Shown one piece after another: positions 8,275-57,891 of a stretch of 64,000 nt of DNA. A program made the position numbers and the translations under genes. How positions within the stretch are numbered: position 1 is the stretch's first letter; every line of letters begins with the position of its first letter. The notes beneath the pieces were generated by a model, which worked only from the letters and a program-made list of their open reading frames with translations, had not been told where the DNA came from and searched no databases. Where the stretch lies: positions 1 through 64,000 of the forward strand of contig CAMLRS010000005.1 in the NCBI GenBank assembly GCA_946482515.1. The letters run 5' to 3'. The stretch comes from an uncultured Flavobacteriales bacterium. GTDB taxonomy: Bacteria; Bacteroidota; Bacteroidia; Flavobacteriales; Crocinitomicaceae.

Positions 8275-8397
8275 GTTTTCTTCAAAACTCACAAAACCCG
8301 CTAACCCCTAAACCCGCTAACCCCTAAACTCGCCAACCCTGCAACTCACCAACCCTGCAACTCACCAACTTCAAACTTCAAACTTCCAACTAATAAT
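8275..8397. repeat. Degenerate G-poor tandem repeat upstream of recG (family A)
   Basis: Words such as CTAACCCCTAAACCCG, CAACCCTGCAACTCAC and CAAACTTCAAACTTCC follow each other with a period near 10-16 bases. The strand is almost free of G. Related words are at 33461-33570 and, in reverse sense, at 14975-15024 and 36741-36775. It ends directly at the recG -7 box. Confidence 0.65.
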
Positions 8398-8405
8398 TAC
8401 CTTTG
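8398..8405 (+). promoter_or_regulatory. -7 promoter box of recG
   Basis: TACCTTTG is a perfect TAnnTTTG; the recG ATG at 8412 follows after six bases. It excludes the TTG at 8403 as a start. Confidence 0.6.
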
Positions 8406-14974: not shown

Positions 14975-15024
14975 TAGTTACTAGTTGGAAGTTACTAGTT
15001 AGAAGTTGCTAGTTGGAAGTTGAG
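14975..15024. repeat. Tandem intergenic repeat, family A (TAGTTGGAAGTTGC)
   Basis: Four tandem, slightly varied copies of an approximately 13-base word (CTAGTTGGAAGTTA and similar). A shorter array with the same word is at 36741-36775. Confidence 0.75.
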
Positions 15025-15040
15025 TCTTCGATTTGACACT

Positions 15041-15120
15041 AAGCATCAACCATCCAACATTAAGAATCAACCATCCCTCTTAAAGTCCTGGTGTCTTGAA
15101 ATCTTACTGTCCTGACGTCC
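15041..15120. repeat. Intergenic repeats, family C (CATCAACCATCCAACAT) followed by family I (AAAGTCCT..GTCTTG)
   Basis: CATC/CAACAT words match 19261-19296 and 42857-42887; the following AAGTCCT/GTCTTG/GTCCTG words match 19301-19335 and 19889-19920. Confidence 0.6.
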
Positions 15121-17026: not shown

Positions 17027-18103
17027 ATGGAAAAAGCGATCAATATCCGGAACCTGAACCTGGAAGAGCTCAAAGCCCATATCACGGCGCTGGGCGAACC
17101 GGCGTTTCGTGCCAAACAGGTCTACGAATGGCTATGGAAGAAAAACGCCCAGTCGTTTGCAGATATGGCCAACATCGGGAAAGCATTGCAGGAAAAGCTC
17201 GCAGCCGCTTGTTTCATCGATGGCATTCGCCTGGAAGACCAGCAGATCAGCACCGATAAAACGATCAAATGTGCGTTTGGCGTAGGCGGACAATCGCAGG
17301 TCATCGAAGGCGTTCTGATCCCGACCAAATCGCGCATGACAGCTTGTATTTCGTCGCAGGTTGGTTGCAGCCTGGCGTGTGAATTCTGCGCCACAGGACG
17401 TTTGAAAATGCTCCGGAACCTGTCTGCCGGCGAGATCGTCGACCAAGTCGTATACTTGAAAAACCTGGCGCATACGCGTTACGATCAGTCACTCACGAAC
17501 ATTGTGTACATGGGCATGGGCGAACCGCTGCTCAATTACAAAAACGTGGTGCGCAGTACCGAGATTCTCAGCGACGAAAACGGGCTCAATATTTCTCCGC
17601 GCCGCATTACCGTGTCAACGGCCGGAATCGCCAAAATGATCAAAAAGCTCGGCGACGACCAGGTGAAATTCAACCTCGCGCTTTCGCTTCACGCTGCCAA
17701 CGACGACAAGCGCAACAAGATCATGGAAATCAACGAGTCGAACAACCTCGAAGCGCTTTCCGAAGCACTCGTTTACTTCCACGAAAAAACCGGCTCACGC
17801 GTTACGTTTGAATACATCATTTTCAAAGATTTCAACGACGGAATGGAAGATGCTCGCCAGCTCGCCGATTTCGCCAAAGCCGTTCCCTGCAAGATCAACA
17901 TCATCGAATACAATCCGATCGACGGTGGTATCTATCAACAGGCCGAGCCACAAAAAGTGGACGATTTCGCCCGTTTCCTCGAAGAAAAATGCAACCTCAT
18001 TGTGAACGTTCGTCGCAGCCGCGGTAAAGACATCGACGCCGCTTGCGGACAGCTCGCGAATAAGAACAAATTGATCGATCAACGCGTTTTGAAAAATTCA
18101 TAA
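17027..18103 (+). CDS. rlmN: Dual-specificity RNA (adenine-C2) methyltransferase RlmN
   Basis: RlmN is a radical-SAM enzyme methylating C2 of A2503 in 23S rRNA and A37 in some tRNAs. The cluster-binding CxxxCxxC is Cys114-Cys118-Cys121 in 'GCSLACEFCATGRLK'; the second catalytic cysteine is Cys340 in 'DIDAACGQLA'. 'MGMGEPLLNY' and 'LSLHAAND' are also typical; 358 residues is normal length. It begins one base after the preceding sulfatase-fold gene. The stop codon TAA (18101-18103) lies inside the left arm of a perfect 20-base inverted repeat that continues into the next promoter. Confidence 0.96.
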   Translation: MEKAINIRNLNLEELKAHITALGEPAFRAKQVYEWLWKKNAQSFADMANIGKALQEKLAAACFIDGIRLEDQQISTDKTIKCAFGVGGQSQVIEGVLIPTKSRMTACISSQVGCSLACEFCATGRLKMLRNLSAGEIVDQVVYLKNLAHTRYDQSLTNIVYMGMGEPLLNYKNVVRSTEILSDENGLNISPRRITVSTAGIAKMIKKLGDDQVKFNLALSLHAANDDKRNKIMEINESNNLEALSEALVYFHEKTGSRVTFEYIIFKDFNDGMEDARQLADFAKAVPCKINIIEYNPIDGGIYQQAEPQKVDDFARFLEEKCNLIVNVRRSRGKDIDAACGQLANKNKLIDQRVLKNS

Positions 18104-18154
18104 TTCAGAATGCACAATTCATAATTATGCATTTTGCATTCTGAATTATGAATT
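18095..18154. repeat. Perfect 20-base inverted repeat, family B
   Basis: AATTCATAATTCAGAATGCA (18095-18114) is exactly reverse-complementary to 18135-18154; the 20-base loop is itself made of the same words. The left arm contains the rlmN stop codon, the right arm overlaps the -33 TTTG and touches the -7 box of the prenyl synthase promoter. Confidence 0.85.
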
Positions 18155-18161
18155 ACCTTTA
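18133..18161 (+). promoter_or_regulatory. Polyprenyl synthase promoter (TTTG-N17-TACCTTTA)
   Basis: TTTG at 18133-18136 and TACCTTTA at 18154-18161, spaced by 17 bases; the ATG at 18169 follows after seven. The -33 element is part of the inverted repeat. Confidence 0.6.
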
Positions 18162-19735: not shown

Positions 19736-19785
19736 ACCACATACCTGCCTGTCGGTAGACAGGGACACATAGAGCACATAGAGTA
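19736..19785. repeat. Family D repeat interrupted by a 20-base palindrome (filled site)
   Basis: ACCACATA (19737-19744 region) is followed by CCTGCCTGTCGGTAGACAGG and then GACACATAGAGCACATAG. The uninterrupted version ACCACATAGACACATAGAGC is at 19855-19884, so the palindrome looks inserted without loss of bases. Confidence 0.8.
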
Positions 19786-19830
19786 GTTGGTGAGTTGTAG
19801 AGTTAAGGAGTTTCTGAGTTGACCGGAAGA
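19786..19830. repeat. Tandem intergenic repeat, family A-like (GAGTTGTAGAGTTAAGGAGTT)
   Basis: GAGTT/TGAGTT words similar to 33401-33440. The gap 19661-20088 is otherwise only repeats D, A, I and A/T-rich DNA. Confidence 0.5.
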
Positions 19831-19854
19831 CTGCGGACGGGAGATTGACTAGTT

Positions 19855-19884
19855 AAACCACATAGACACATAGAGCACATAGAT
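19855..19884. repeat. Family D repeat, uninterrupted (empty site)
   Basis: AACCACATAGACACATAGAG followed by CACATAGATGG. It is the empty counterpart of 19736-19785. Confidence 0.8.
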
Positions 19885-22469: not shown

Positions 22470-23575
22470 GCCAGGATCTTTTCAAGTTCGGTCCGTATCA
22501 CGTCAGCCTGTGGAACATTGTGCTGATCGCAATCATCGTGCTGGCAGCCATCGTCGTGCGCAAGATCATCCACAAGCTGCTGAAGCGTTACCTTGTAAAT
22601 GCCAATATCCGTATCGAAGGCCGTCGCGTGGCAGGATTGAAGCTTCTCACACAAAGCGTTTACGCCCTGGCCGCCTGGCTGGCAGTTATCAGCTTTCGGA
22701 TCAACAACCCGGAAGTGACCTTTGCCGACTTCCTCGACTACAATTTCTGGGATTACAAGATCAAAGTGAGCTTCGGGCACATTTTGTCCATCATTTTTAT
22801 CCTGTTCGGCGCCAAAGTGACCATTAACGTGGCGCAGCTCTACCTGCACCGTCGTTTCCGGAAGGATGAAAATTACAATCGCGGAACGGAATACGTGTAC
22901 CTGCAGGTAACGAAATACGTCGTTTACACGATTGCGTTCATCATGATCCTCAGCGCGCTGGAAGTCAAGCCGTCGATCTTCCTCGGAGGTTCCGCTGCCT
23001 TGCTCGTCGGTCTCGGATTGGGATTGCAGGACGTTTTCAAGGATATGTTTTCCGGTTTCGTGCTCTTGTTCGAAGGCAGCATTCGAGTAGGGGACGTGAT
23101 CGAATTCTACGATGGAAAATCGTCTGAGCCTATTGTAGCGAAAATTCTGAAGATCAATGTCCGCACCACACAGATCGAAACCCGCGACGGCAACGTGCTC
23201 ATCGTCCCTAATGCCAAGCTCACGCAGGAATACGTTGAAAACTGGAGCCACGGTTCCATGCTTTCCCGTTTCCGGATCGATCTCACCGTGCCGTACAATT
23301 GCAATACACAGCTGGTGAGCGAGCTGCTCGTACAAGCCGCTATGAGTCACCCAAAAGTGAAGAAATCCGAGCCGGTCCAGGTGCGTATGAATAACTTTTC
23401 CGAGAACGGTCTGAGCATGCAGCTCATTTTCTGGGCCGATCAGAGCTGGGACATCAACCAGTACAAATCTGACATCCGCTTCGAAATCGATCGCCTGTTC
23501 CGCCACTACGGCATCGACTTCCCGTATCCGCAGCGCGATATTCACGTATTCCAGGGGAAACAAACCAAAGAGTAA
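22466..23575 (+). CDS. Small-conductance mechanosensitive channel, MscS family
   Basis: MscS channels release solutes on osmotic downshock. The 369-residue protein has four hydrophobic helices (about 12-32, 58-75, 92-115, 145-162), then the pore helix 'FLGGSAALLVGLGLGLQDVF' continuing to 'SGFVLLFEGSIRVGDVIE', and a cytoplasmic beta/alpha-beta part. Glycine and alanine packing in the pore helix is typical. The ATG overlaps the dnaG stop by four bases, implying translational coupling. The stop TAA is the first triplet of a family B intergenic repeat (TAATTCAGAATTCAGAATGC). Confidence 0.9.
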   Translation: MSQDLFKFGPYHVSLWNIVLIAIIVLAAIVVRKIIHKLLKRYLVNANIRIEGRRVAGLKLLTQSVYALAAWLAVISFRINNPEVTFADFLDYNFWDYKIKVSFGHILSIIFILFGAKVTINVAQLYLHRRFRKDENYNRGTEYVYLQVTKYVVYTIAFIMILSALEVKPSIFLGGSAALLVGLGLGLQDVFKDMFSGFVLLFEGSIRVGDVIEFYDGKSSEPIVAKILKINVRTTQIETRDGNVLIVPNAKLTQEYVENWSHGSMLSRFRIDLTVPYNCNTQLVSELLVQAAMSHPKVKKSEPVQVRMNNFSENGLSMQLIFWADQSWDINQYKSDIRFEIDRLFRHYGIDFPYPQRDIHVFQGKQTKE

Positions 23576-23630
23576 TTCAGAATTCAGAATGCACAATTAT
23601 GAATTCTGCATTTTGAATTGTGCATTGATG
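23573..23630. repeat. Intergenic repeat, family B, starting at the mscS stop codon
   Basis: TAATTCAGAATTCAGAATGC begins with the stop TAA; AATGCACAATT (23588-23598) pairs with AATTGTGCATT (23616-23626). Same phase to the stop as at rlmN. Confidence 0.75.
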
Positions 23631-23647
23631 ATTGTTCCTTAGTTTTG
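23618..23647 (+). promoter_or_regulatory. Pyrophosphatase promoter (TTG-N19-TAGTTTTG)
   Basis: TTG at 23618-23620 inside the repeat, TAGTTTTG at 23640-23647, ATG at 23652 four bases later. Confidence 0.55.
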
Positions 23648-29967: not shown

Positions 29968-30007
29968 TTTCCCCCCTTTGGAGCTTGCCTCGCCGGCAGG
30001 CAGGGAG
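29968..30007. repeat. Family G repeat carrying an embedded palindrome (family E)
   Basis: TTTCCCCCCTTTGGAG is followed by CTTGCCTCGCCGGCAGGCAGG and then GAGTATTAAGGAG. The palindrome has the same CTTGCC/GGCAGG arms as at 38086-38110. Confidence 0.65.
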
Positions 30008-33408: not shown

Positions 33409-33570
33409 CGAGTTACTGAGTTTTCCAGTTGGCGAGTTGCAGTATTATTGAAAGATAAAACCCAATTCTTCAACCCCGAAACCCGCCACTAATAACTCGT
33501 AACTCATAACTCATCAACCCAACAACTCATAACTCAAAAACTCTCCAACTCATCAACTCGTAACTCCAAC
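33401..33570. repeat. Long imperfect inverted repeat between CPBP and ABC genes (family A)
   Basis: The first part (33401-33440) is C-poor, with GAGTTACTGAGTT and GGCGAGTTGCAG; the second (33461-33570) is almost free of G, with AACTCGTAACTCATAACTC and CATCAACCCAACAACTC words. They can pair. The CPBP stop codon lies in the first bases. This gap (33409-33601) has no gene. Confidence 0.65.
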
Positions 33571-35828: not shown

Positions 35829-36743
35829 ATGCGTGTTGCGGTTATTGACCTGGGGACAAATACCTTCAATGTGCTCGTTGCAGATGTACACGAGAACGGT
35901 TTTGATGTCATTCACAATGCCAAAGAAGGCGTGGCGCTCGGTATGGGCGGCATCAACCAGGGATTTATCGCCCCGGAAGCCTTGAAACGCGCCTTGAAAG
36001 CATTCGAAACGTTTATGAACATTTGCGTCAAATACCAGGCGTTCAGCGTGCGGGCTATCGGTACTTCGGCTTTGCGCGATGCCAGCAACGGACAGGAATT
36101 AGTCGATAAAATAAAGCGTTTGTACGGTGTACACGTCGAAGTCATTGACGGCTTGCGCGAAGCACAACTCATCTACGACGGCGTTCGCTGGCTCTACGAT
36201 TTTTCCGAGCCTTCCCTGATCATGGATATCGGCGGTGGCAGCACGGAATTCATTCGCGGACATGGTGAAATGCCGTTGCAATCGTGCAGTCTCAATATCG
36301 GCGTTTCGCGTGCTGTTCAGCTCTTCGATCTTTCCGATCCGTATACCGAAGCCGATCAGCAGCTGGTTACCAATTGGTTCGAAGAAAATGCCCGCCCGCT
36401 GGATGCATTCGATGCCTGCACGACACTCGTAGGTGCTTCGGGAAGCTTCGAGACGTTCTACGAAATGATCCACAAAAAGCGCTTCCCAAAAACCACGCAT
36501 ACCATCCGACTGAAACGCCCGGAGCTCGATCACATCCTCGACTGGCTCATTCAATCGCGTTTCGAAGAGCGGGAAAGTCATCCGTACATCATTCCGATCC
36601 GCCGGAAAATGGCACCCATCGCTGCACTCAAAACCAAATGGATCCTCGATAAATTCAACATCAGCGAGATCGTCGTTTCGCCATTCGCACTGAAAGAAGG
36701 TGTTCTGAAAGAAGAAAACCAGAAGTGGGATAAGATAAACTAG
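35829..36743 (+). CDS. Ppx/GppA-family phosphatase
   Basis: This actin-fold protein (304 residues) hydrolyses polyphosphate or pppGpp. The two phosphate loops are 'AVIDLGTNTFNVLV' (4-17) and 'IMDIGGGSTEF' (about 131-142). It lacks the C-terminal HD-like domain of the long E. coli Ppx, so it is the short type and cannot be called Ppx or GppA from sequence alone. It begins two bases after the ABC permease. The stop codon TAG (36741-36743) is the first triplet of a family A repeat, so the gene ends exactly where the repeat begins. Confidence 0.9.
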   Translation: MRVAVIDLGTNTFNVLVADVHENGFDVIHNAKEGVALGMGGINQGFIAPEALKRALKAFETFMNICVKYQAFSVRAIGTSALRDASNGQELVDKIKRLYGVHVEVIDGLREAQLIYDGVRWLYDFSEPSLIMDIGGGSTEFIRGHGEMPLQSCSLNIGVSRAVQLFDLSDPYTEADQQLVTNWFEENARPLDAFDACTTLVGASGSFETFYEMIHKKRFPKTTHTIRLKRPELDHILDWLIQSRFEERESHPYIIPIRRKMAPIAALKTKWILDKFNISEIVVSPFALKEGVLKEENQKWDKIN

Positions 36744-36775
36744 TTACTAGTTGGAAGTTGCTAGTTGGAAGTTGG
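36741..36775. repeat. Intergenic repeat, family A, starting at the ppx stop codon
   Basis: TAGTTACTAGTTGGAAGTTG followed by CTAGTTGGAAGTTGG; the first TAG is the stop codon. Same word as 14975-15024. Confidence 0.75.
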
Positions 36776-36785
36776 TGTTTCAACT

Positions 36786-36868
36786 TCCTCCTTCGGAGGG
36801 GATAAAGGGAGGACGGCACAAATCTGCGCATACGGATTGTGCATTATGCATTCTGAATTATGCATTAT
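36786..36868. repeat. Intergenic repeats, family G palindrome then family B
   Basis: CCTCCTTCGGAGG (36787-36799) with GGATAAAGGGAGG, then TGCATTATGCATTCTGAATT (from about 36840). They fill the gap before the response regulator promoter. Confidence 0.55.
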
Positions 36869-38073: not shown

Positions 38074-38133
38074 ATGTTTGATTTTGGACCTTGCCTGCGG
38101 CAGGCAGGTGCTGAATGCTTGATGATGGTATTC
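38074..38133. repeat. Family C repeat with embedded palindrome (family E), orientation 1
   Basis: TTTGATTTTGGA leads into CCTTGCCTGCGGCAGGCAGG and continues with TGCTGAATGCTTGATGATGG. Positions 38077-38110 (34 bases) are exactly the reverse complement of 45656-45689. Confidence 0.8.
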
Positions 38134-41158: not shown

Positions 41159-42817
41159 ATGTGGATACTCCGGTTTAACCAATTTCTCAAGAATTTCTTC
41201 CGTTTGATGGCGATCATTTTTATCGTTATCGGACATTATTGGAGAAACTGGCTGACGACCGGTCCACTTCGTAAAATCGTTGATCCGAGAGGGCGAAAAC
41301 GCATGTCGCGGGCCGAACGTCTGCGTCACCTGATCGAAGATTTAGGACCAACGTTCATTAAGTTCGGGCAGATCCTGGCCGACCGTCCCGACCTGATTTC
41401 CGAAAGCCTGCGTATCGAGCTGAAAAAACTGCAATCATCGGCACGACCGTTTGACGACGATCTCGCGCTCGGACTGATCGAAGCCGAGCTGGGTGACAGT
41501 GTTGCCAATATCCTCGACGAATTTGACACCAAGCACATTGCTTCGGCTTCTATTGCACAGGTCTACCGCGCCACGCTCCGGACCGGTGAGCAGGTGGTGA
41601 TCAAAATCCAGCGCCCAGGCATCAAGGACAAGATCAAGCTCGATCTGATCCTGATCCAGCTTTTCGCCAGGAAGATCCAGCGTCATTATCCTGAGCTGAA
41701 CAGCTTTAACATCGTCAACTTCATCACCGATTTCAGTGAGATCATTCTCAAAGAGCTCGATTTCACGAACGAAATGTCGAACATGCTGCGGTTCACGCAT
41801 ATGTTCAAAGACGATGAGCGCTGCTACATCCCGAAAGTCTACAACCGTTACTGCACACCTAAGCTGCTGGTGATGGAATACATCGATGGTGAAAAGCCCG
41901 ATCACGTTAAGGAGCTGGATGCCAAAGGCTATTCGCGCGAACAGATTGCTGAGAACGGCGTCAATATCGTGCTCACGATGATCCTCAAACACGGTTTCTT
42001 CCATGCCGATCCGCATCCCGGAAACCTGTTCATTCGGGGCGACAACCAGATCGTACTCATCGACCACGGAATGTGTGCTTCCCTGAAGCCGCGCCAGATC
42101 GACGGTCTGATCAACTTCCTCCTCGGTTTTGCCGAAAAGAACTCGCACAAGATCGCGAAAGCGGTTCTGGCGCTTACAGAAGTCCAGCACCTGCGGGATA
42201 TGGAAAACCTCGAGTTCAATATCGACGAGATTATCCAGAAATACAGTTACCTGAAATACGACCAGGTGGATATTTCCGGGTTGTTCAACGATACGTTCCG
42301 TTTGCTGATCCGCTACGAGATCAAGATTCCGTCGAACCTGTATATGCTCCTCAAAACCCTCATCACGATCCAGAATCTGGCCGAGTCCATGGGCGCGAAG
42401 CTGTCGATCGTAGAAATGATCCGCCCGTATGCGAAGGAAAAGATCATGGAGCGCTTCAGCTGGGACAATATCAAATCGAAAGTTATCAATTCGGCGGAAG
42501 ATTATCTGTACCTCATCAGTACGCTGCCGAAAGACATTCGCGAGATCGTTAGCGGTTTCAAAAACGACGGTTTGCGCCACAAAATCTCCTTCGGTGGCAG
42601 TACCGACAGCAACAACGCCATTGTGAAGAGCCACATTTACCGTTTCGGAACGGTGTTGCTGGTGGGTGTTATGCTGATCTGTTCGACCCTGTTAATGATG
42701 CACGGCAAGCCTGATTCTTTCGAGAAATTCTTCTTCTACACATCCATTTCGTTGTGCGTCTGGGTGCTGCTCCGCATGGTGATCCGCTCGATTGTGGATG
42801 AAGGCGGCGGCAGATGA
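41159..42817 (+). CDS. UbiB/ABC1/AarF-family protein kinase-like protein
   Basis: The 552-residue protein belongs to the atypical kinases that support quinone synthesis or lipid transport. It has the KxGQ motif as 'KFGQILADRP' (68-77), 'ASASIAQVYRA' with 'VVIKIQRPG' (ATP-binding Ala-rich loop and Lys), 'HADPHPGNLF' and 'LIDHGMCAS' (metal Asp). Two C-terminal membrane helices ('TVLLVGVMLICSTLLMMHG', 'SISLCVWVLLRMVI') anchor it. Menaquinone is the expected quinone in this group. The stop TGA (42815-42817) begins a family C repeat. Confidence 0.92.
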   Translation: MWILRFNQFLKNFFRLMAIIFIVIGHYWRNWLTTGPLRKIVDPRGRKRMSRAERLRHLIEDLGPTFIKFGQILADRPDLISESLRIELKKLQSSARPFDDDLALGLIEAELGDSVANILDEFDTKHIASASIAQVYRATLRTGEQVVIKIQRPGIKDKIKLDLILIQLFARKIQRHYPELNSFNIVNFITDFSEIILKELDFTNEMSNMLRFTHMFKDDERCYIPKVYNRYCTPKLLVMEYIDGEKPDHVKELDAKGYSREQIAENGVNIVLTMILKHGFFHADPHPGNLFIRGDNQIVLIDHGMCASLKPRQIDGLINFLLGFAEKNSHKIAKAVLALTEVQHLRDMENLEFNIDEIIQKYSYLKYDQVDISGLFNDTFRLLIRYEIKIPSNLYMLLKTLITIQNLAESMGAKLSIVEMIRPYAKEKIMERFSWDNIKSKVINSAEDYLYLISTLPKDIREIVSGFKNDGLRHKISFGGSTDSNNAIVKSHIYRFGTVLLVGVMLICSTLLMMHGKPDSFEKFFFYTSISLCVWVLLRMVIRSIVDEGGGR

Positions 42818-42887
42818 TGTTGGATGTTGAATTTTTGATGATGGATTAAACGATTCATCAAAAATCAAGCATCAATAATCCAACATC
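42816..42887. repeat. Inverted pair of family C repeats between convergent genes
   Basis: GATGTTGGATGTTGAATTTT (from 42816, overlapping the kinase stop TGA) faces ATCAATAATCCAACATC (to 42887). The 31 bases 42857-42887 are the exact reverse complement of 45106-45136. The stem could stop transcription from both sides. Confidence 0.8.
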
Positions 42888-43712: not shown

Positions 43713-45107
43713 ATGCAGTCCATTCCAAACACTACGATTGAAGAACAATATTTCCGTATTACCCATGCTCAGCCGGAAGTACACCTGAATGCGCCCTGCA
43801 AGCTCGGAGAAGGTATTGTTGCCTTGCCGCAGGAAGAAGCAGCCCGTTTGCGCGAATTGTTCCTTCACAGTCCGCAATCCAAGGCATTTTTCATTCCTGC
43901 TTCGGGTTCGGGATCGCGTATGTTCGAATTCCTTTTCAATTTTATCGATAACCCAACGGAAGAAAACCGCGGACAGGTCGAGCGTTTCCTCAACCACGTG
44001 GAAGATTTTGCCTTCTTTCACCAGTTTCCGATCGAAGTGCAGCGCCAATTGACCGGCCGCACCATGGACATCGATGCATTTGTGGCGTATATCCTGAACG
44101 ACAACGGCATGGGACTGGCGCATTTGCCGAAAGGTCTGATCGCTTTTCACAAGCACGGACCTTTTCTCCTGAATCCGTTCCATGAACATATTCTGCAAGG
44201 CCTGGCGGTTTGCAACAACGAATGCAGCTTCCATTTCACGATTCGTAATACGTTTCGCTCGCTGATCGAAAAGCGTCTGGAACATATGGAAGGTATGACG
44301 GGCAAAAAGCTCGATATCGCATTCAGTGTTCAAAACCCGGAAACCGATGCGTATTCCTTTACCGCTGATGGCGAAGTAGCGCTTTGCGAAAACGGGGAGC
44401 CGCTGAAACGACCTGCCGGGCACGGCGCTCTGCTCGAAAACCTGAACAGCGTCGATGCGGACATGATTTTCATCAAGAACATCGACAATGTGCAGCACCT
44501 CAACCATGCGGGCGAAGCCATTGAAACACAGCAATTGCTAGGCGGTTTGCTGCTGAAAGTGCAGCAGGACATCGAACAAGTCTTGCAACAGCCTTCGTTC
44601 CAGCAGATCAAAGAGCTGAACAATCAGTACCAGCTGTTTCACGAAGAAGAATTGCAGAAACCGCTCGACGACCTGATCGCTTTGCTGAAGCGTCCGATGC
44701 GTGTGTGCGGAATGGTGCGCAATGAAGGACAGCCGGGTGGAGGACCGTTTTGGATCCATGAAAACAATGGTATTTCTAAGCAGATCATCGAAAAAGCACA
44801 GATCAGCATGAGCGCCGATCAATACCGTTTGATGATCCAGTCGACGCACTTTAATCCGGTAATGATGGTTTGCTCCGGCAAGCTGCTCTCGGGCGAAAAA
44901 GTAGACTTCCTGCAATACCGAGACAATGAAAAATACTTCATCGTGAATAAGAATTACCGCGGGAAAGAAATCCGTTTTACGGAGCTTCCTGGCTTATGGA
45001 ACGGCAGCATGGCTTACTGGAACAGCGTGTTTGTGGAAATCCCAAGCACGACCTTCAGCCCGGTGAAAACCGTGCTCGACCTGCTCGAAGCAGCACACCA
45101 GAAGTGA
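43713..45107 (+). CDS. DUF4301 family protein (nucleotidyltransferase-like fold)
   Basis: The 464-residue soluble protein fits DUF4301, a Bacteroidota family whose N-terminus resembles sugar nucleotidyltransferases: 'FFIPASGSGSRMFEFL' (glycine-rich loop), 'HLPKGLIAFHKH' (Lys-Gly-Leu, as in PKGL) and 'LNPFHEHILQ'. Further motifs are 'LDIAFSVQNPETDAYSF', 'RPAGHGALLENLN' and 'MRVCGMVRNEGQPGGGPFW'. Activity is unproven. It starts 30 bases from the divergent methyltransferase; ATG 43713 is preferred over a TTG at 43677. The stop TGA starts a family C repeat identical to the one behind the methyltransferase. Confidence 0.88.
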   Translation: MQSIPNTTIEEQYFRITHAQPEVHLNAPCKLGEGIVALPQEEAARLRELFLHSPQSKAFFIPASGSGSRMFEFLFNFIDNPTEENRGQVERFLNHVEDFAFFHQFPIEVQRQLTGRTMDIDAFVAYILNDNGMGLAHLPKGLIAFHKHGPFLLNPFHEHILQGLAVCNNECSFHFTIRNTFRSLIEKRLEHMEGMTGKKLDIAFSVQNPETDAYSFTADGEVALCENGEPLKRPAGHGALLENLNSVDADMIFIKNIDNVQHLNHAGEAIETQQLLGGLLLKVQQDIEQVLQQPSFQQIKELNNQYQLFHEEELQKPLDDLIALLKRPMRVCGMVRNEGQPGGGPFWIHENNGISKQIIEKAQISMSADQYRLMIQSTHFNPVMMVCSGKLLSGEKVDFLQYRDNEKYFIVNKNYRGKEIRFTELPGLWNGSMAYWNSVFVEIPSTTFSPVKTVLDLLEAAHQK

Positions 45108-45144
45108 TGTTGGATTATTGATGCTTGATTTTTGATTGTTGATG
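45105..45144. repeat. Family C repeat starting at the DUF4301 stop codon
   Basis: TGATGTTGGATTATTGATGC begins with the stop TGA. The 31 bases 45106-45136 match 42857-42887 in inverted orientation. It runs into the start of the next small gene. Confidence 0.8.
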
Positions 45145-45624
45145 ATCAGGTTTTTTCTGTTGTTGTTCCTTACAATCAATTGTTTCCGTTCGGAAGCACA
45201 AGGATTGATGGAATTCTCCGGGAAGGAATGGACATTTGGCTTCCTGATGATTCCCGGTGAAGAGAAAACCATTACAACCAACTATCATGCAACATCGTTT
45301 GAGATCAGGCCGGATAGTACCTTTGCAATGGGAATGAGCGAAGCCGCAGAATCGGGTGTGATTCATGCAGATTCTACCCTGACAATCCAATTATACGATT
45401 ATAACTCAGACGCTGAAAACAGCCGATGGGCGGAAAGCTTCCGGATCTGGCATTGTTCAGAAAATTACCTCATCCTGGTTCAGCAAGCCGCCAACTATAA
45501 TTGGTATTATAGCTCGATGAAAGGATTCGGCGACATTTGGTTCGTTTATTGCCGAAAAGACGTTGGCCGCGTCAGCGAGGCAAAAAAAATCTACAAAAAG
45601 CTCAGAAAAGAACTTTCCTTCTGA
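45142..45624 (+). CDS. Small exported protein of unknown function
   Basis: A 160-residue protein with a signal peptide ('IRFFLLLFLTINCFRSEAQ') and a mature part of mixed beta strands ('WTFGFLMIPGEEKTITTNY', 'FEIRPDSTFAMGMSEAAESG', 'TIQLYDYNSDAENSRWAESF') and two cysteines. It resembles many short Bacteroidota periplasmic proteins that have a 'D..GW.. strand' layout but I cannot place it in a family. ATG 45142 is preferred over TTG 45136. Its 5' end overlaps a family C repeat and its stop TGA begins another, so the gene is flanked by repeats on both sides. Confidence 0.6.
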   Translation: MIRFFLLLFLTINCFRSEAQGLMEFSGKEWTFGFLMIPGEEKTITTNYHATSFEIRPDSTFAMGMSEAAESGVIHADSTLTIQLYDYNSDAENSRWAESFRIWHCSENYLILVQQAANYNWYYSSMKGFGDIWFVYCRKDVGRVSEAKKIYKKLRKELSF

Positions 45625-45700
45625 TGTTGGATGACTTGTTTAATCCATCATCAAACACCTGCCTGCCGCAGGCAAGGTCCAAAATCAAAAATCAACCAAC
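45622..45700. repeat. Family C repeat with embedded palindrome (family E), orientation 2
   Basis: TGATGTTGGATGACTTG starts at the stop TGA of the small exported protein. Positions 45656-45689 are the exact inverted copy of 38077-38110 and include CCTGCCTGCCGCAGGCAAGG. Confidence 0.8.
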
Positions 45701-54405: not shown

Positions 54406-54909
54406 ATGACTAAAACACCTCATTCCGTTCACAAAATTCGCTTCAGCGACTGCGATCCATTCGGACACCTCAACAACGCGCGGTACCTCGATTATTTCCT
54501 CGACGCGCGGGAAGAACATCTGAAACACGCTTACGATTTCAACCTGACAGCTCATTACAGCAATGGCCTGGCATGGGTGATCGGCAGTCACGAAATTGTC
54601 TACATCCGCCCGGCGGTGTATAACGAGCAGGTTCGTATTACGTCGACCTTGCTGCAAGCCGAAAATGATAGTCTGCATGTGGAAATGCTGATGATGAACG
54701 AACAACAGGATCAGCTGAAGGCAATCATTCGAACAACTTTCGTTCCAATCAACACGAAAACCGGAAAGCGCGATCAGCACCCGGCCGATCTCCTGGAATG
54801 GGCAAAAACGATTGAAAATGCTGAACCTGGAATGCAGACAAACTTGCAGGATAGAATTAAAACGCTGCTCGGTGAGCTGAAAGCCGGAAAGAGCCCTATT
54901 GCCGGTTAA
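54406..54909 (+). CDS. Hotdog-fold acyl-CoA thioesterase (4HBT family)
   Basis: The 167-residue protein has the 4-hydroxybenzoyl-CoA thioesterase pattern 'IRFSDCDPFGHLNNARYLDY' at 11-30, with Asp/His at the active-site turn, followed by beta strands 'VIGSHEIVYIRPAVYNEQVR' and 'DSLHVEMLMMNEQQDQLKAI'. It would cleave an acyl-CoA or acyl carrier thioester. A TetR gene lies upstream with matching operators on both genes, so expression is regulated. Its stop TAA (54907-54909) shares TTAA with the stop of the convergent gene on the other strand. Confidence 0.88.
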   Translation: MTKTPHSVHKIRFSDCDPFGHLNNARYLDYFLDAREEHLKHAYDFNLTAHYSNGLAWVIGSHEIVYIRPAVYNEQVRITSTLLQAENDSLHVEMLMMNEQQDQLKAIIRTTFVPINTKTGKRDQHPADLLEWAKTIENAEPGMQTNLQDRIKTLLGELKAGKSPIAG

Positions 54910-55856
54910 CGTGCGTTGGTCGTTTCTACCAGGCGCGGAGGCAATTCCATACCACCCCATTCGAGTACATCAAAACCGGAACGGTCAAATACCGGGAGTG
55001 TTCGAAGGGAAGTATTGACATCCGGAATTTCAGACGACCAGATCATATACAAACGATTGATTTTCGCCGGAACGGAAAGCTCTAGCGTCGCCAGCTGATT
55101 AACTTCTTCATTGAAGATAAAGTTCAGGTAAACGCGCTCGTGTTGAATGAGCTGCGGTCCCCAGAAGGTAATGAAATCGGTTTGTTCCTGCGCCGTTAAT
55201 CCGATACGGGTTAGCTGCGTTTCCAGGAAAGCAACGACTTGGTCGCGTTCGATAATGAATCCGTCGGCACGGTTGGCCAGGCTTGGTGGTAGTACTTTAT
55301 CGGCTTCCCAGAACAAATACGGGTAAGTTTTGCCTTCAATCGTCATGCTGCCATCGGGATGGGCCGTTCCTTTCCAGCCGTTATCGTAAGCAGGGTAGGA
55401 GAAGCTCAGTCCGTTTTCTGTTCCAACGGTTACTTCGACTTCCGTATCGCTTTCCGGGTAGAGGTAAATCACCGGCTTTTTCATTTGAACAGGCCGCTCG
55501 GCGTTAAAGAAATGGAGCCGAATCCGTGTGACATAACCTGCTTTCACTTCGATGGAATCAGTTTCGATCTCATCAAACTGTGAAGTATAGTAAAAGCTGA
55601 AAACGTATTTTCCTGCCGGAAGCTCCGTACCGATTGCCTGCTCCACCACGGCCGGCAGCGAGCTGCTGTATTCATTAGCTCCGTAGTGGAGAAGATCACC
55701 TTCCTCGGCTGTACTGAATTGATCACAATGGATGACAACCTTGGTTTGTGTAGCCGATACAGCCGCATCTTTGACGTAACTTACGCTGTATGTGGGAATT
55801 TTCTTCGCAAACGCAAAAATCGGCAGCAGGAGCGCCAATGTTAAAAACAGTTTCAT
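54906..55856 (-). CDS. Exported 'KPVIYLYPE' family protein, copy 3 of operon
   Basis: The 316-residue protein has a signal peptide ('LFLTLALLLPIFAFAKK'), an N-terminal beta domain (about 20-120) and a conserved C-terminal domain: 'MKKPVIYLYPESDTEVEV', 'GWKGTAHPDGSMTIEGK', 'YPYLFWEADKVLPP', 'ERDQVVAFLETQLTRIGL', 'EQTDFITFWGPQL', and the end 'LPVFDRSGFDVLEWGGMELP'. I know no function for this family. It is the last of three paralogs; its ATG overlaps the previous stop by four bases (55853-55856). The start at 55856 fits the overlap; a longer frame to 55907 does not. Its stop TAA shares TTAA with the thioesterase stop. Confidence 0.75.
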   Translation of the reverse strand: MKLFLTLALLLPIFAFAKKIPTYSVSYVKDAAVSATQTKVVIHCDQFSTAEEGDLLHYGANEYSSSLPAVVEQAIGTELPAGKYVFSFYYTSQFDEIETDSIEVKAGYVTRIRLHFFNAERPVQMKKPVIYLYPESDTEVEVTVGTENGLSFSYPAYDNGWKGTAHPDGSMTIEGKTYPYLFWEADKVLPPSLANRADGFIIERDQVVAFLETQLTRIGLTAQEQTDFITFWGPQLIQHERVYLNFIFNEEVNQLATLELSVPAKINRLYMIWSSEIPDVNTSLRTLPVFDRSGFDVLEWGGMELPPRLVETTNAR

Positions 55857-56818
55857 TGCTGAACAATTAAAGGATGAAACAATGCAGGCAATTGGATGCC
55901 GCCCCATTCCAATACGTCGAAACCGGAACGGTCGAACACAGGCAATTGCTGTGGGATAAGCGCCGGTTCATTGCCGGTAGCCTGCGACCAAAGGATGTAC
56001 AAGCGATTGATGTTATCGGGCTCAGGCGACAATTGCAAGGTGGCAAAACGATCGCAGGAAGCTCCCCATGCAAACTGGATGGCAACCCGGTCGTATTGTG
56101 TCAATCGCGGTCCCCAGTAAGTAATGAAATCGGCCTGCTCGCGCTCGTTCAGTCCTGCGGAAGTGAGCTTTTCCTCGAGGAAAGTCAGCACCTGGTCGCG
56201 CGAAACCACAAAACCGGTTCCCGGAGCCGGGGCTACTTCATTGGCAGTCGTTTCGGCGTCCCAAAAGAGATACGGATAGTTTTTACCGTTGATGGTCATA
56301 CTGCCATCGGGATGCGCCGTTCCTTTCCAGCCATTTTCGTAAACAGGATAGGTGAACAGAAACGAACCTTGTGGCTCAACCAATGTGGTAACTTCCAGAT
56401 CGGTTTCCGGGTAAAGGTAAATCACCGGTTTTTCGGTCGTGACGGGAATGCGTTCGTATTCGAAACGCAAATCGATAATGGTCAGCATTCCCGGCTTTAC
56501 TTCGATGGAATCGGTCGTGATTTCGCTGAAATAATCCAGGTAGAATTGGAAAACGTACGTTCCGGGTGCCCGGGTAATTTTCAGTGTTCTGTCTTTTTCG
56601 AGCACACCGGATTCAGATGAGCCGTTCAGGCCGTACAACAATGCTGTTGGTGTTGCCAGGTTCATATTGACATTGAGCGTACAGCGGAACAGCAATTTTC
56701 CTTCAGTGGGAGCAAGGCCTGTTTCGTCCTGGTAAGAGACCGAATACGGCGGGATCCATTCTTTTCCGAAAACCGGTAAAGCGGCTAAAAGCAGTGTTAT
56801 CAGGGCAAGTATTTTCAT
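55853..56818 (-). CDS. Exported 'KPVIYLYPE' family protein, copy 2 of operon
   Basis: The 321-residue middle copy has a signal peptide ('ILALITLLLAALPVFGKEW'), a variable N-terminal beta domain, and the same C-terminal domain: 'TEKPVIYLYPETDLEVTT', 'GWKGTAHPDGSMTINGK', 'YPYLFWDAETT', 'VSRDQVLTFLEEKLTSAGL', 'EQADFITYWGPRLTQY' and 'LPVFDRSGFDVLEWGGIQLP'. It starts inside the previous stop and ends inside the next start, both with four-base ATGA overlaps, so all three are translated together. The N-terminal region is more divergent than the C-terminal one, suggesting each copy contacts a different partner. Confidence 0.75.
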   Translation of the reverse strand: MKILALITLLLAALPVFGKEWIPPYSVSYQDETGLAPTEGKLLFRCTLNVNMNLATPTALLYGLNGSSESGVLEKDRTLKITRAPGTYVFQFYLDYFSEITTDSIEVKPGMLTIIDLRFEYERIPVTTEKPVIYLYPETDLEVTTLVEPQGSFLFTYPVYENGWKGTAHPDGSMTINGKNYPYLFWDAETTANEVAPAPGTGFVVSRDQVLTFLEEKLTSAGLNEREQADFITYWGPRLTQYDRVAIQFAWGASCDRFATLQLSPEPDNINRLYILWSQATGNEPALIPQQLPVFDRSGFDVLEWGGIQLPALFHPLIVQQ

Positions 56819-57828
56819 CGGTTGCTGGATAAAGATTTGGTTTCAATAAACTGAAAAGGAACTTCCGATCCGCCCCATTCGAGCACGTCGAAGCCGGAAC
56901 GGTCAAATACCGGCAATTGCTGTGGAACGACTTTAAAATCGGGTTGTTTGCCAACAGCCGTCCACAAGATGTAAAGACGGTTCACATGATCAGGCTGCGG
57001 ATAAATGTCCATTTCGGCAAAACGGTCACAGGCATCGTTCCAGGCAAACTGGATGAACACCATCGGCTCTTGCGTGAGGCGCGGGCCCCAATAGGTGATG
57101 AAATCGGTTTGCTCACGGGACGAGAAGCCCATTTGGGTGAGCTTTTGCTCCAGAAAAGCAACAACCTGGTCTTTGTGAACGATAAATCCTTCGTCCTGTT
57201 TCATATCCGACTGATTGATCTGCATTTTGGCGTCCCAGAACAGGTAAGGATAATTTTTTCCGGCGATCGTCATGCTGCCGTCGGGATGCGCCGTACCATG
57301 CCAGCCATTTTCGTATGCCGGATATGTGAAGCTGAACTCACCACGTGGTGTTACTTCCGTGCAAAATTCCAGATCTGTTTCGGGATACAGGTAAACCACC
57401 GGCTTGTCGACCATGATCTCCACATGTGATTCCTGGAAATTCAGTTCAACGGTGGTGCGATAGCCCGGCTGAATGGTCACCGAATCAGAATAGATCTCGT
57501 AATAATGATTGTTCATCGTGTAGGCATAGAACTGGAAAACGTGAATTCCGGCATCTACCATGTGATCCTGCCACAGATTGTCGTCTTGCTTTACTTCCAT
57601 GTAATTGCCGTCGCAGCTCGCCATAATAACCGGATAGTCGGGATTGCCCGGAATGGCAACAAAGCTGGGACTCCTGAAAATAAAATGAAAAACAGCTTTG
57701 CCGGCCGGAATAGAGGCATCCTTTTCGCTTTTGAGCACATTGAAAGGTGGGATAATGCGATTCTCTTCCGCCGCTTTCGCGAAAAATACGGTCGGAAGGA
57801 ACAGGAGGAAGCAGATCAGTCGTTGCAT
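56815..57828 (-). CDS. Exported 'KPVIYLYPE' family protein, copy 1 of operon
   Basis: The 337-residue first copy has a signal peptide ('RLICFLLFLPTVFFAKA'), an N-terminal domain (about 20-145) with 'HMVDAGIHVFQFYAYTMNN', and the conserved domain: 'VDKPVVYLYPETDLEFCT', 'GWHGTAHPDGSMTIAGK', 'YPYLFWDAKMQ', 'VHKDQVVAFLEQKLTQMGF', 'EQTDFITYWGPRLTQEP' and 'LPVFDRSGFDVLEWGGSEVP'. Conserved Tyr, Trp and Asp residues suggest a folded enzyme or binding domain. The start at 57828 gives the signal peptide; the longer frame to 57852 adds an unlikely leader. Upstream is an A/T-rich gap with a family B inverted repeat. Confidence 0.75.
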   Translation of the reverse strand: MQRLICFLLFLPTVFFAKAAEENRIIPPFNVLKSEKDASIPAGKAVFHFIFRSPSFVAIPGNPDYPVIMASCDGNYMEVKQDDNLWQDHMVDAGIHVFQFYAYTMNNHYYEIYSDSVTIQPGYRTTVELNFQESHVEIMVDKPVVYLYPETDLEFCTEVTPRGEFSFTYPAYENGWHGTAHPDGSMTIAGKNYPYLFWDAKMQINQSDMKQDEGFIVHKDQVVAFLEQKLTQMGFSSREQTDFITYWGPRLTQEPMVFIQFAWNDACDRFAEMDIYPQPDHVNRLYILWTAVGKQPDFKVVPQQLPVFDRSGFDVLEWGGSEVPFQFIETKSLSSNR

Positions 57829-57891
57829 ACAAACAGATTTTATATGCAGCAATACAGCTCTCTTTGGAAAAAGTTCAGATCGAATTATAAA

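Follow-up and report, generated by a model that had tools for sequence, protein, structure and literature searches.

A palindrome of 20 bp that splits a repeat in the DNA of an uncultured Flavobacteriales bacterium is probably a non-coding, non-autonomous mobile hairpin, REP-like yet without the GTAG tag, on which an enzyme would act in trans. The stretch of DNA analyzed, called the window throughout, is 64,000 nucleotides long. Mobility and the exact length of the unit are both supported by comparison of filled with empty sites, every such pair being comparative in kind. REP-like palindromes have long been suspected of being mobile, and to our knowledge (our own judgment, not a survey) clean before-and-after sites are scarce. 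If its mobility is true, the 20-mer would be an unusually small mobile DNA unit, scarless, in the non-coding DNA of many Bacteroidota and of some viral contigs.

The 20-bp unit and its boundaries

The original prediction was that a palindrome interrupts a repeat whose uninterrupted form lies nearby, and this can be read directly from the window (Table 1). The split point is ACCACATA^GACACATAGAGCACATAGA (^ marks the insertion point), and the flanks rejoined without the unit agree with the empty copy until the first mismatched letter, which follows directly on the matching stretch. The unit is one base off the commonest form, CCTGCCTGTCGGCAGACAGG, which accounts for 29 of the 85 sites recovered by a degenerate-pattern search. 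A scan of the 64-kb window for the 20-mer at up to three mismatches gave this one match, and 100 shuffles gave none.

Table 1. Positions of the features discussed, in window coordinates except where loci of other genomes are named.
Feature	Position or locus	Strand	Basis
Filled site, left flank ACCACATA	19736..19743	+	direct read
Putatively mobile 20-bp palindrome CCTGCCTGTCGGTAGACAGG	19744..19763	+	only match at ≤3 mismatches; boundary test
Filled site, right flank GACACATAGAGCACATAGAG	19764..19783	+	direct read
Empty copy of the rejoined flanks, ACCACATAGACACATAGAGCACATAGA	19857..19883	+	27/27 letters identical
Related 21-bp palindrome CTTGCCTCGCCGGCAGGCAGG, preceded by CCCCTTTGGAG	29984..30004	+	sequence read
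Related 20-bp palindrome CCTTGCCTGCGGCAGGCAGG within TTTGATTTTGGA^TG word repeat	38089..38108	+	sequence read
Second, inverted copy of the 38089-38108 composite; 20-bp variant CCTTGCCTGCGGCAGGCAGG	45658..45677	-	sequence read
Word-repeat intergenes	8294-8399, 14975-15076, 18091-18156, 23572-23640, 33488-33566, 36727-36868, 42815-42887, 45105-45151		
Small, free-standing GIY-YIG genes next to an intact tRNA, with a partial tRNA copy in the same locus	L178, L182, L185, L190, L193, L194, L195, L196 (family genomes)		

The length of the unit was determined by a boundary test, in which 12 + 12 letters of flank were rejoined for 86 of 89 copies (three were dropped for short or masked flanks) and sought in DNA of the same genome. 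Outside UBA5871 (G001) this DNA comprised the surroundings of copies only, and for the window copy it was the window plus G001. The prediction had called for a search for uninterrupted copies of the flanks, and these exist: with 20 bp removed, 25 of 86 rejoined flanks match elsewhere in the same genome at ≤3/24 mismatches, as compared with 0/86 at each of the other offsets from -4 to +4 and 0/176 for random cuts. At ≤4/24 mismatches the counts are 35/86 at 20 bp, 0 to 4 at the other offsets, and 2 for random cuts. No empty copy was found for 61/86 copies at ≤3 mismatches and for 51/86 at ≤4 (surroundings of copies only being searched outside G001), and the statement that such palindromes are always nested and never alone is thus too strong elsewhere.

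In G001 the flanks read on across the unit as GTGTGAG^TGTGAG, CACCACAAA^AGGCACAAAG, CCTGAAG^TCTTGAAG, TCGGT^CTCCGGTC, and TTCGTGCA^TTCGTGG, and other genomes have flank words of their own (ATTCGTGATTT^GTGATTCGTG, ATTTGAATATTT^GAATATTTGAATC, and AACTTTT^GAACC). A hairpin repeat of G292, TCATCCTGAG^CGAAAGCGAAG, occurs twice filled and five times empty; CCTGAG^NNTGTCGAAGG of G198 occurs once filled and 20 times empty, with the same NNT in six of the empty copies. The pattern CCTGAGN{0,26}GTCGAAGG had no match in G494 or G340 and gave empty forms only in G065. Flank comparison shows a unit of exactly 20 bp placed between two neighboring bases of the target, its ends being ambiguous by one base where the left flank ends in G, and at clean sites the same comparison shows the target neither duplicated nor lost. 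The proposal of exactly 20 bases without target duplication is therefore upheld by the boundary test and the clean empty sites.

Three related palindromes had been noted elsewhere in the window. All are present, but the last two belong to inverted 51-bp copies of each other (88%) and hence are one duplicated composite rather than independent cases. The CCCCTTTGGAG/CTTGCCTCGCCGGCAGGCAGG composite recurs in contig C226 (L288) of UBA5871, the closest genome found to the window, with 98% amino acid identity in polyprenyl synthase. Among the pieces that align, the two longest show 86–88% nucleotide identity and a third, of 389 bp, shows 77%. The window itself looks like a contig from a Fluviicola-like member of the Crocinitomicaceae. 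None of the window's four palindromes was found in the corresponding UBA5871 intergenes, where entire repeat blocks differ, and because whole blocks are replaced there UBA5871 offers no clean presence/absence test for them.

Many intergenes of the window contain word repeats of 7 and 8 bp, which are found again at distant positions (Table 1), and one 31-bp inverted pair is 100% identical; the word-repeat blocks that were compared are replaced in the sister genome UBA5871. A Pfam scan of 49 window ORFs (short ORFs excluded) gave a match for 40 and none for nine, and no transposase, integrase, or reverse transcriptase was among the 40. Three adjacent, mutually similar genes at 54906-57852 have no Pfam match at E ≤ 1e-4. 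CP034120.1 (L004), titled Glaciecola amylolytica, groups with Fluviicola (90% amino acid identity in polyprenyl synthase, common neighboring genes), and its species label looks wrong.

Presence and absence in related genomes

The leader of rpsB was compared in 30 loci, the best matches among the 143 rpsB-bearing genomes of 150; 27 could be aligned and three had no recognizable leader. Among the 27, 22 have no insert, three carry the exact 20-mer (G014, G150, and G062), and two carry other inserts, of about 21 nt (G132) and 18 nt (G083), at the same place. The join in G014 and G150 is (T/C)A(T/A)A(A/T)AG^GAACGTAAACAA-like, and that of G014 is exactly TAAAG^GAACGTAAACAA, which is the empty leader of G015. 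Filled G014 and empty G015 are 89.3% identical over 2,924 bp, and their S2 proteins are 100% identical over 210 amino acids. Filled G062 and empty G137 share 94.0% identity over 3,632 bp and 98.9% over the first 630 nt of rpsB, but they make a less clean pair, since their joins differ, apart from the 20-mer, by substitutions and some 2 bases (TTAAG^AATG versus CTAAAGTGAACG). Since the G014 and G150 leaders are clearly unlike that of G062, two entries at the same place, losses, or leader exchange are needed. The leader motif GGTTGTTTAGTATC...ACTAAAGGAACGTAAACAA is conserved with variation in 27 of the 30 fetched loci (L316-L345), and had no Rfam match at the gathering threshold in L080, L098, and L120.

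Among the predicted viral contigs of IMG/VR, L244 and L254 are filled at GAGCGCCCCGTG^CTTGAACACGGAG and L302 is empty, the difference being exactly 20 bp. To the right of the site, L244 and L302 are identical for more than 100 bp, and to the left they lose their similarity within some 20 bases. Four other gapped IMG/VR scans gave no empty partner (three returned filled copies only, one its own contig), and one 46-base filled site had no match in the phage collection. Presence/absence comparison of relatives had been proposed as a check; the alignments show the 20-mer present in some and absent from other relatives at orthologous sites, both in cellular genomes and in IMG/VR contigs.

Palindromes in general are prone to deletion, and the 20-mer could accordingly be ancestral at its sites, with the empty ones arising by precise deletion; G014 and G150 are filled, and G015, despite an S2 identical to that of G014, is empty. 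We consider this very unlikely, as 22 of the 27 leaders have no insert, the filled leaders are split between two sequence groups, and the join, apart from a single shared G, has no direct repeat that could guide a precise deletion. We hold as equally unlikely a reading in which recombination or gene conversion spreads only long composites of palindrome and host word-repeat, with the 20-mer never moving on its own. The same phase and variant do recur in G001 (CACCACAAA^AGGCACAAA twice, and four TCCTGAAG-word sites), and the 38089/45658 pair of the window is such a case. However, the same 20-mer occurs with exact edges in unrelated contexts (5S, tRNA, rpsB leader, hairpin repeats, and word arrays), and the G014/G015 and L244/L302 pairs are orthologous sites with and without the unit.

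Copy numbers were determined in 15 genomes with the pattern CCTGYCTRYCGRYAGRCAGG at ≤1 mismatch, the reversed pattern serving as control. G001 has 32 copies, in many varied repeat contexts, G014 has four and G009 has one, and G002-G008, which are Fluviicola and near relatives, have none; the reversed pattern gave no match in the 15 genomes. A survey of the family found the palindrome in 22 of 150 genomes (reversed control, 1/150). Across the phylum, 21 of 395 Bacteroidota genomes, G001 included, have the exact asymmetric CCTGCCTGTCGGCAGACAGG, with 61 occurrences in all (reversed control, 0/395), and well under one match is calculated for random sequence of the size of these 395 genomes. The same form was found in 23 stretches of IMG/VR contigs; with copies present on contigs classified as viral, phages may plausibly have carried the unit between genomes. 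The palindrome is thus not limited to the places first noted, nor always shared in the same position, as indicated by the 32 varied UBA5871 copies, the exact boundary, and the orthologous presence and absence.

At L049, L061, and L066 of G001, word repeats close to the palindromes also contain different GC-rich inverted stretches (GTCCGC...GCGGAC). On IMG/VR contig L253 (9094-11373), GC-rich similar palindromes lie in frame within a long ORF, reading LPVRQAG and LPAGRQ, and are reminiscent of Rickettsia RPEs. In the open-licence literature searched, the 20-mer was found as a literal string in no paper; among the matches listed (20 of 106) only the 10-letter GGCAGGCAGG occurred, in unrelated papers, and a search by topic found no description of this 20-bp unit among the matches listed.

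Insertion sites and candidate enzymes

Position counts show that the 20-mer avoids genes: 6/116 non-viral sites are inside ORFs of at least 120 amino acids, as compared with 72% of random positions, and 5/28 IMG/VR sites are so placed. Similar targets were thinned to 103 sites, 75 of them non-viral, for the analysis of flanks. G directly precedes the oriented unit on its left at 46/103 sites (background 22%, p 3e-7), and the left dinucleotide is AG at 18/103 (background 5.5%, p 1e-5). The mirror counts are 22 for right C and 8 for right CT, with right A rare (10); at the 75 non-viral sites, left G falls to 27/75 and AG is 14/75. These counts show an excess of G and of AG, so that a left (A)G would be a weak but oriented candidate for an IS200/IS605-like fixed target word, with the caveat that a perfect palindrome has no inherent orientation. 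Flank letter counts gave no conserved tetranucleotide.

The preferences also bear on whether the copies are an assembly or adapter artefact. Several carriers are metagenome-assembled drafts, but gene avoidance, orientation preference, and lineage-specific copy numbers, together with copies deep within multi-megabase contigs of G443, G385, and G340, make an artefact scarcely credible.

Hairpin loops were rejected as targets, being marginal at best in two tests. Loops with arms of at least 5 were hit at 18/103 sites versus 9.9% at random (p 0.012), those with arms of at least 6 at 5 sites (p 0.28) and of at least 7 at 3 sites (p 0.047), and energy folding gave 32/103 versus 23%.

At 6/103 sites tRNA or 5S sequence spans the junction, versus 2/2053 random cuts. 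G077 and G132 have an intact 5S rRNA gene followed by a partial second 5S end with the 20-mer, in G132 a variant of it, between TAAGTC and GACGC. A partial tRNA-Arg in G054 and a partial tRNA-Phe in G014 carry the 20-mer near the intact gene. In G385 (L229, 1350-2350), nine same-strand ~77-bp repeats of a partial tRNA-Leu with the 20-mer, as read in its D-loop, lie beside an intact tRNA-Leu. Two contig starts of G001 (L056 1-120 and L062 1-120) have a 5S-like 3' end with the 20-mer and an extra GC-rich stretch, and these ends had no Rfam match at the gathering threshold.

As RNA, the commonest form folds on one strand into an 8-bp hairpin with a G.U pair (-11.2 kcal/mol) and on the other into CCTG plus a 6-bp hairpin (-9.0 kcal/mol), the CCTG strand being a tetranucleotide followed by a 16-nt hairpin (CCTGTC GGCA GACAGG). 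Letters 9 and 16, which are paired only in the shifted fold, are TA at 64, CG at 14, TG at 4, and CA at 3 of the 85 genome sites; their covariation may reflect merely two sequence lineages.

A RAYT or reverse transcriptase partner had been suspected, and profile matching found neither in G001, a draft genome in which the absence of a gene is consequently not certain. Y1_Tnp (PF01797) had a match in 11 of 17 palindrome-positive genomes (G009 and 10 of a further 14) and none in the other six (G001, G014, G137, G065, G077, and G469). It also matched in palindrome-free genomes (such as G002, G004, and G006-G008), and in 7/10 palindrome-free or untested-positive relatives overall. With 6/17 positive genomes lacking a match, a RAYT as required partner in the same genome was rejected. 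RVT_1 had a match in 8/20 genomes, the positives G062, G047, and G137 included, with no visible relation to copy number; a reverse transcriptase was rejected as partner on the lack of a match in G001, which has 32 copies.

GIY-YIG matches were found in 32/32 genomes, only a few in each, and their number was rejected as a predictor of palindrome count, there being no relation across the 32 genomes: G004, G005, and G007 have 7 each and no palindrome, and G001 has 5 (UvrC-type included) and 32 palindromes. A GIY-YIG ORF, scored by a custom profile, lies within 300 bp of 8/144 sites (7/103 after thinning) and of 1.9% of random positions in the same loci. The six adjacent loci are in G054, G065, G179, G443, G385, and IMG/VR contig L238, with a Pfam match for G054, G065, L211 of G443, and L238. 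Separately, 9 of 30 fetched GIY-YIG loci have a tRNA, eight of these with a partial tRNA copy (short BLAST matches), and the tRNA-adjacent genes listed in Table 1 look like tRNA-targeting GIY-YIG elements.

The proximity of these ORFs to insertion sites, although the genes are few per genome, and the tRNA and 5S matches across junctions would agree with capture, in which a GIY-YIG nuclease cuts DNA that is tRNA-like or cruciform and the break takes up the self-complementary 20-mer. By analogy, intron endonucleases have been proposed to help mobilize yeast mitochondrial GC clusters (PMC4478555). Such capture is nonetheless unlikely: gene number does not track palindrome number, random positions also fall near these ORFs at the rate given above, and the co-location may merely reflect non-functional tRNA fragments tolerating insertions. 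The GIY-YIG and tRNA-fragment link does provide a concrete enzyme candidate.

In the account we prefer, that of a mobile hairpin served in trans, the 20-mer would move as a folded single strand, a mode that we infer. The anatomy of its strands, CCTG plus hairpin on one and an 8-bp hairpin on the other, may be akin to that of REP or IS200/IS605 ends. The enzyme would act in trans and need not reside in the genome now holding copies, and composite arrays already containing the palindrome would then also be copied by recombination. Two enzymes can be named as candidates, a transiently acting Y1-HUH protein and a GIY-YIG nuclease. A broader version is tentative and, in our estimate, somewhat doubtful. 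It posits a class of ultra-short mobile hairpins whose trans enzyme is neither RAYT nor reverse transcriptase but possibly a GIY-YIG protein acting on tRNA-like or folded DNA, whose spread through the phylum is partly on phages, and which remodels leaders such as that of rpsB on landing. As the most copy-rich genome seen (G001) has no match to the usually invoked enzymes, what moves a 20-bp hairpin is directly testable. The unit is minimal, its ends are defined to a single base or almost so, and before-and-after constructs are readily provided by the pairs from the rpsB leader and from IMG/VR.

Comparison with known systems

MITEs are non-autonomous, non-coding, and have terminal symmetry, as does the 20-mer. 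The 20-mer is far shorter, however, it is not known to have a parent transposon, and target-site duplication is absent from its empty sites (G292, the rpsB leader, IMG/VR, and the boundary test). REP or IS200/IS605 ends insert without target duplication.

Comparison with REPs, RPEs, and GC clusters draws on PMC3733652, PMC6006769, PMC3116915, PMC4478555, and PMC2800124, with PMC7218506 besides. GC clusters of yeast mitochondria and RHEs of sponge mitochondria are described in PMC4478555 and PMC2800124 as small intergenic hairpins that proliferate with no known enzyme, a likeness to the 20-mer. They are organellar, and the 20-mer leaves no repeat, the IMG/VR and rpsB-leader sites having no short direct repeats at its ends. 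CGTC-tagged REPs, Rickettsia RPEs included, apparently have no dedicated transposase (PMC3733652); they are likewise short palindromes, some of them nested in palindromes. The commonest 20-mer, CCTG...CAGG, differs from these in having no CGTC at its end, and orthologous filled/empty pairs are available here.

REPs are short (20-40 bp), and some lie within other small palindromes (PMC3733652). The GTAG-type REP, BIME, and REPIN families with a RAYT resemble the 20-mer as short, multi-copy intergenic palindromes of patchy spread, with a hairpin and a 5' tetranucleotide, and the suggestion that the 20-mer resembles REPs was right as an analogy. It has CCTG at the foot, however, where REPs have GT[AG]G, its copy-rich genome G001 has no Y1_Tnp match, and the same 20-mer occurs across a phylum. 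Copies in G001 are singlets rather than the inverted doublets of REPINs, the closest two on one contig being 1.9 kb apart. Where copies lie close together in G443 and G385 they share a strand, and a single pair on opposite strands, separated by about 250 bp, occurs on contig L253.

A plain REP family mobilized by its own RAYT, a Y1 HUH transposase, would agree with the size, palindrome, intergenic location, patchy spread, and lack of target duplication, and with the Y1_Tnp matches in the majority of positive genomes tested. We nevertheless judge it improbable, as the commonest form has neither a GTAG/GTGG nor a CGTC tag, Y1_Tnp is missing from positive genomes including the draft G001 and present in palindrome-free ones, and copies that share a contig in G001 are separated by no less than 1.9 kb. 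The 20-mer is not filed with the GTAG or CGTC REPs or with MITEs, because the tags and the target duplication are missing; the best account is that it works like a REP despite lacking the REP tags.
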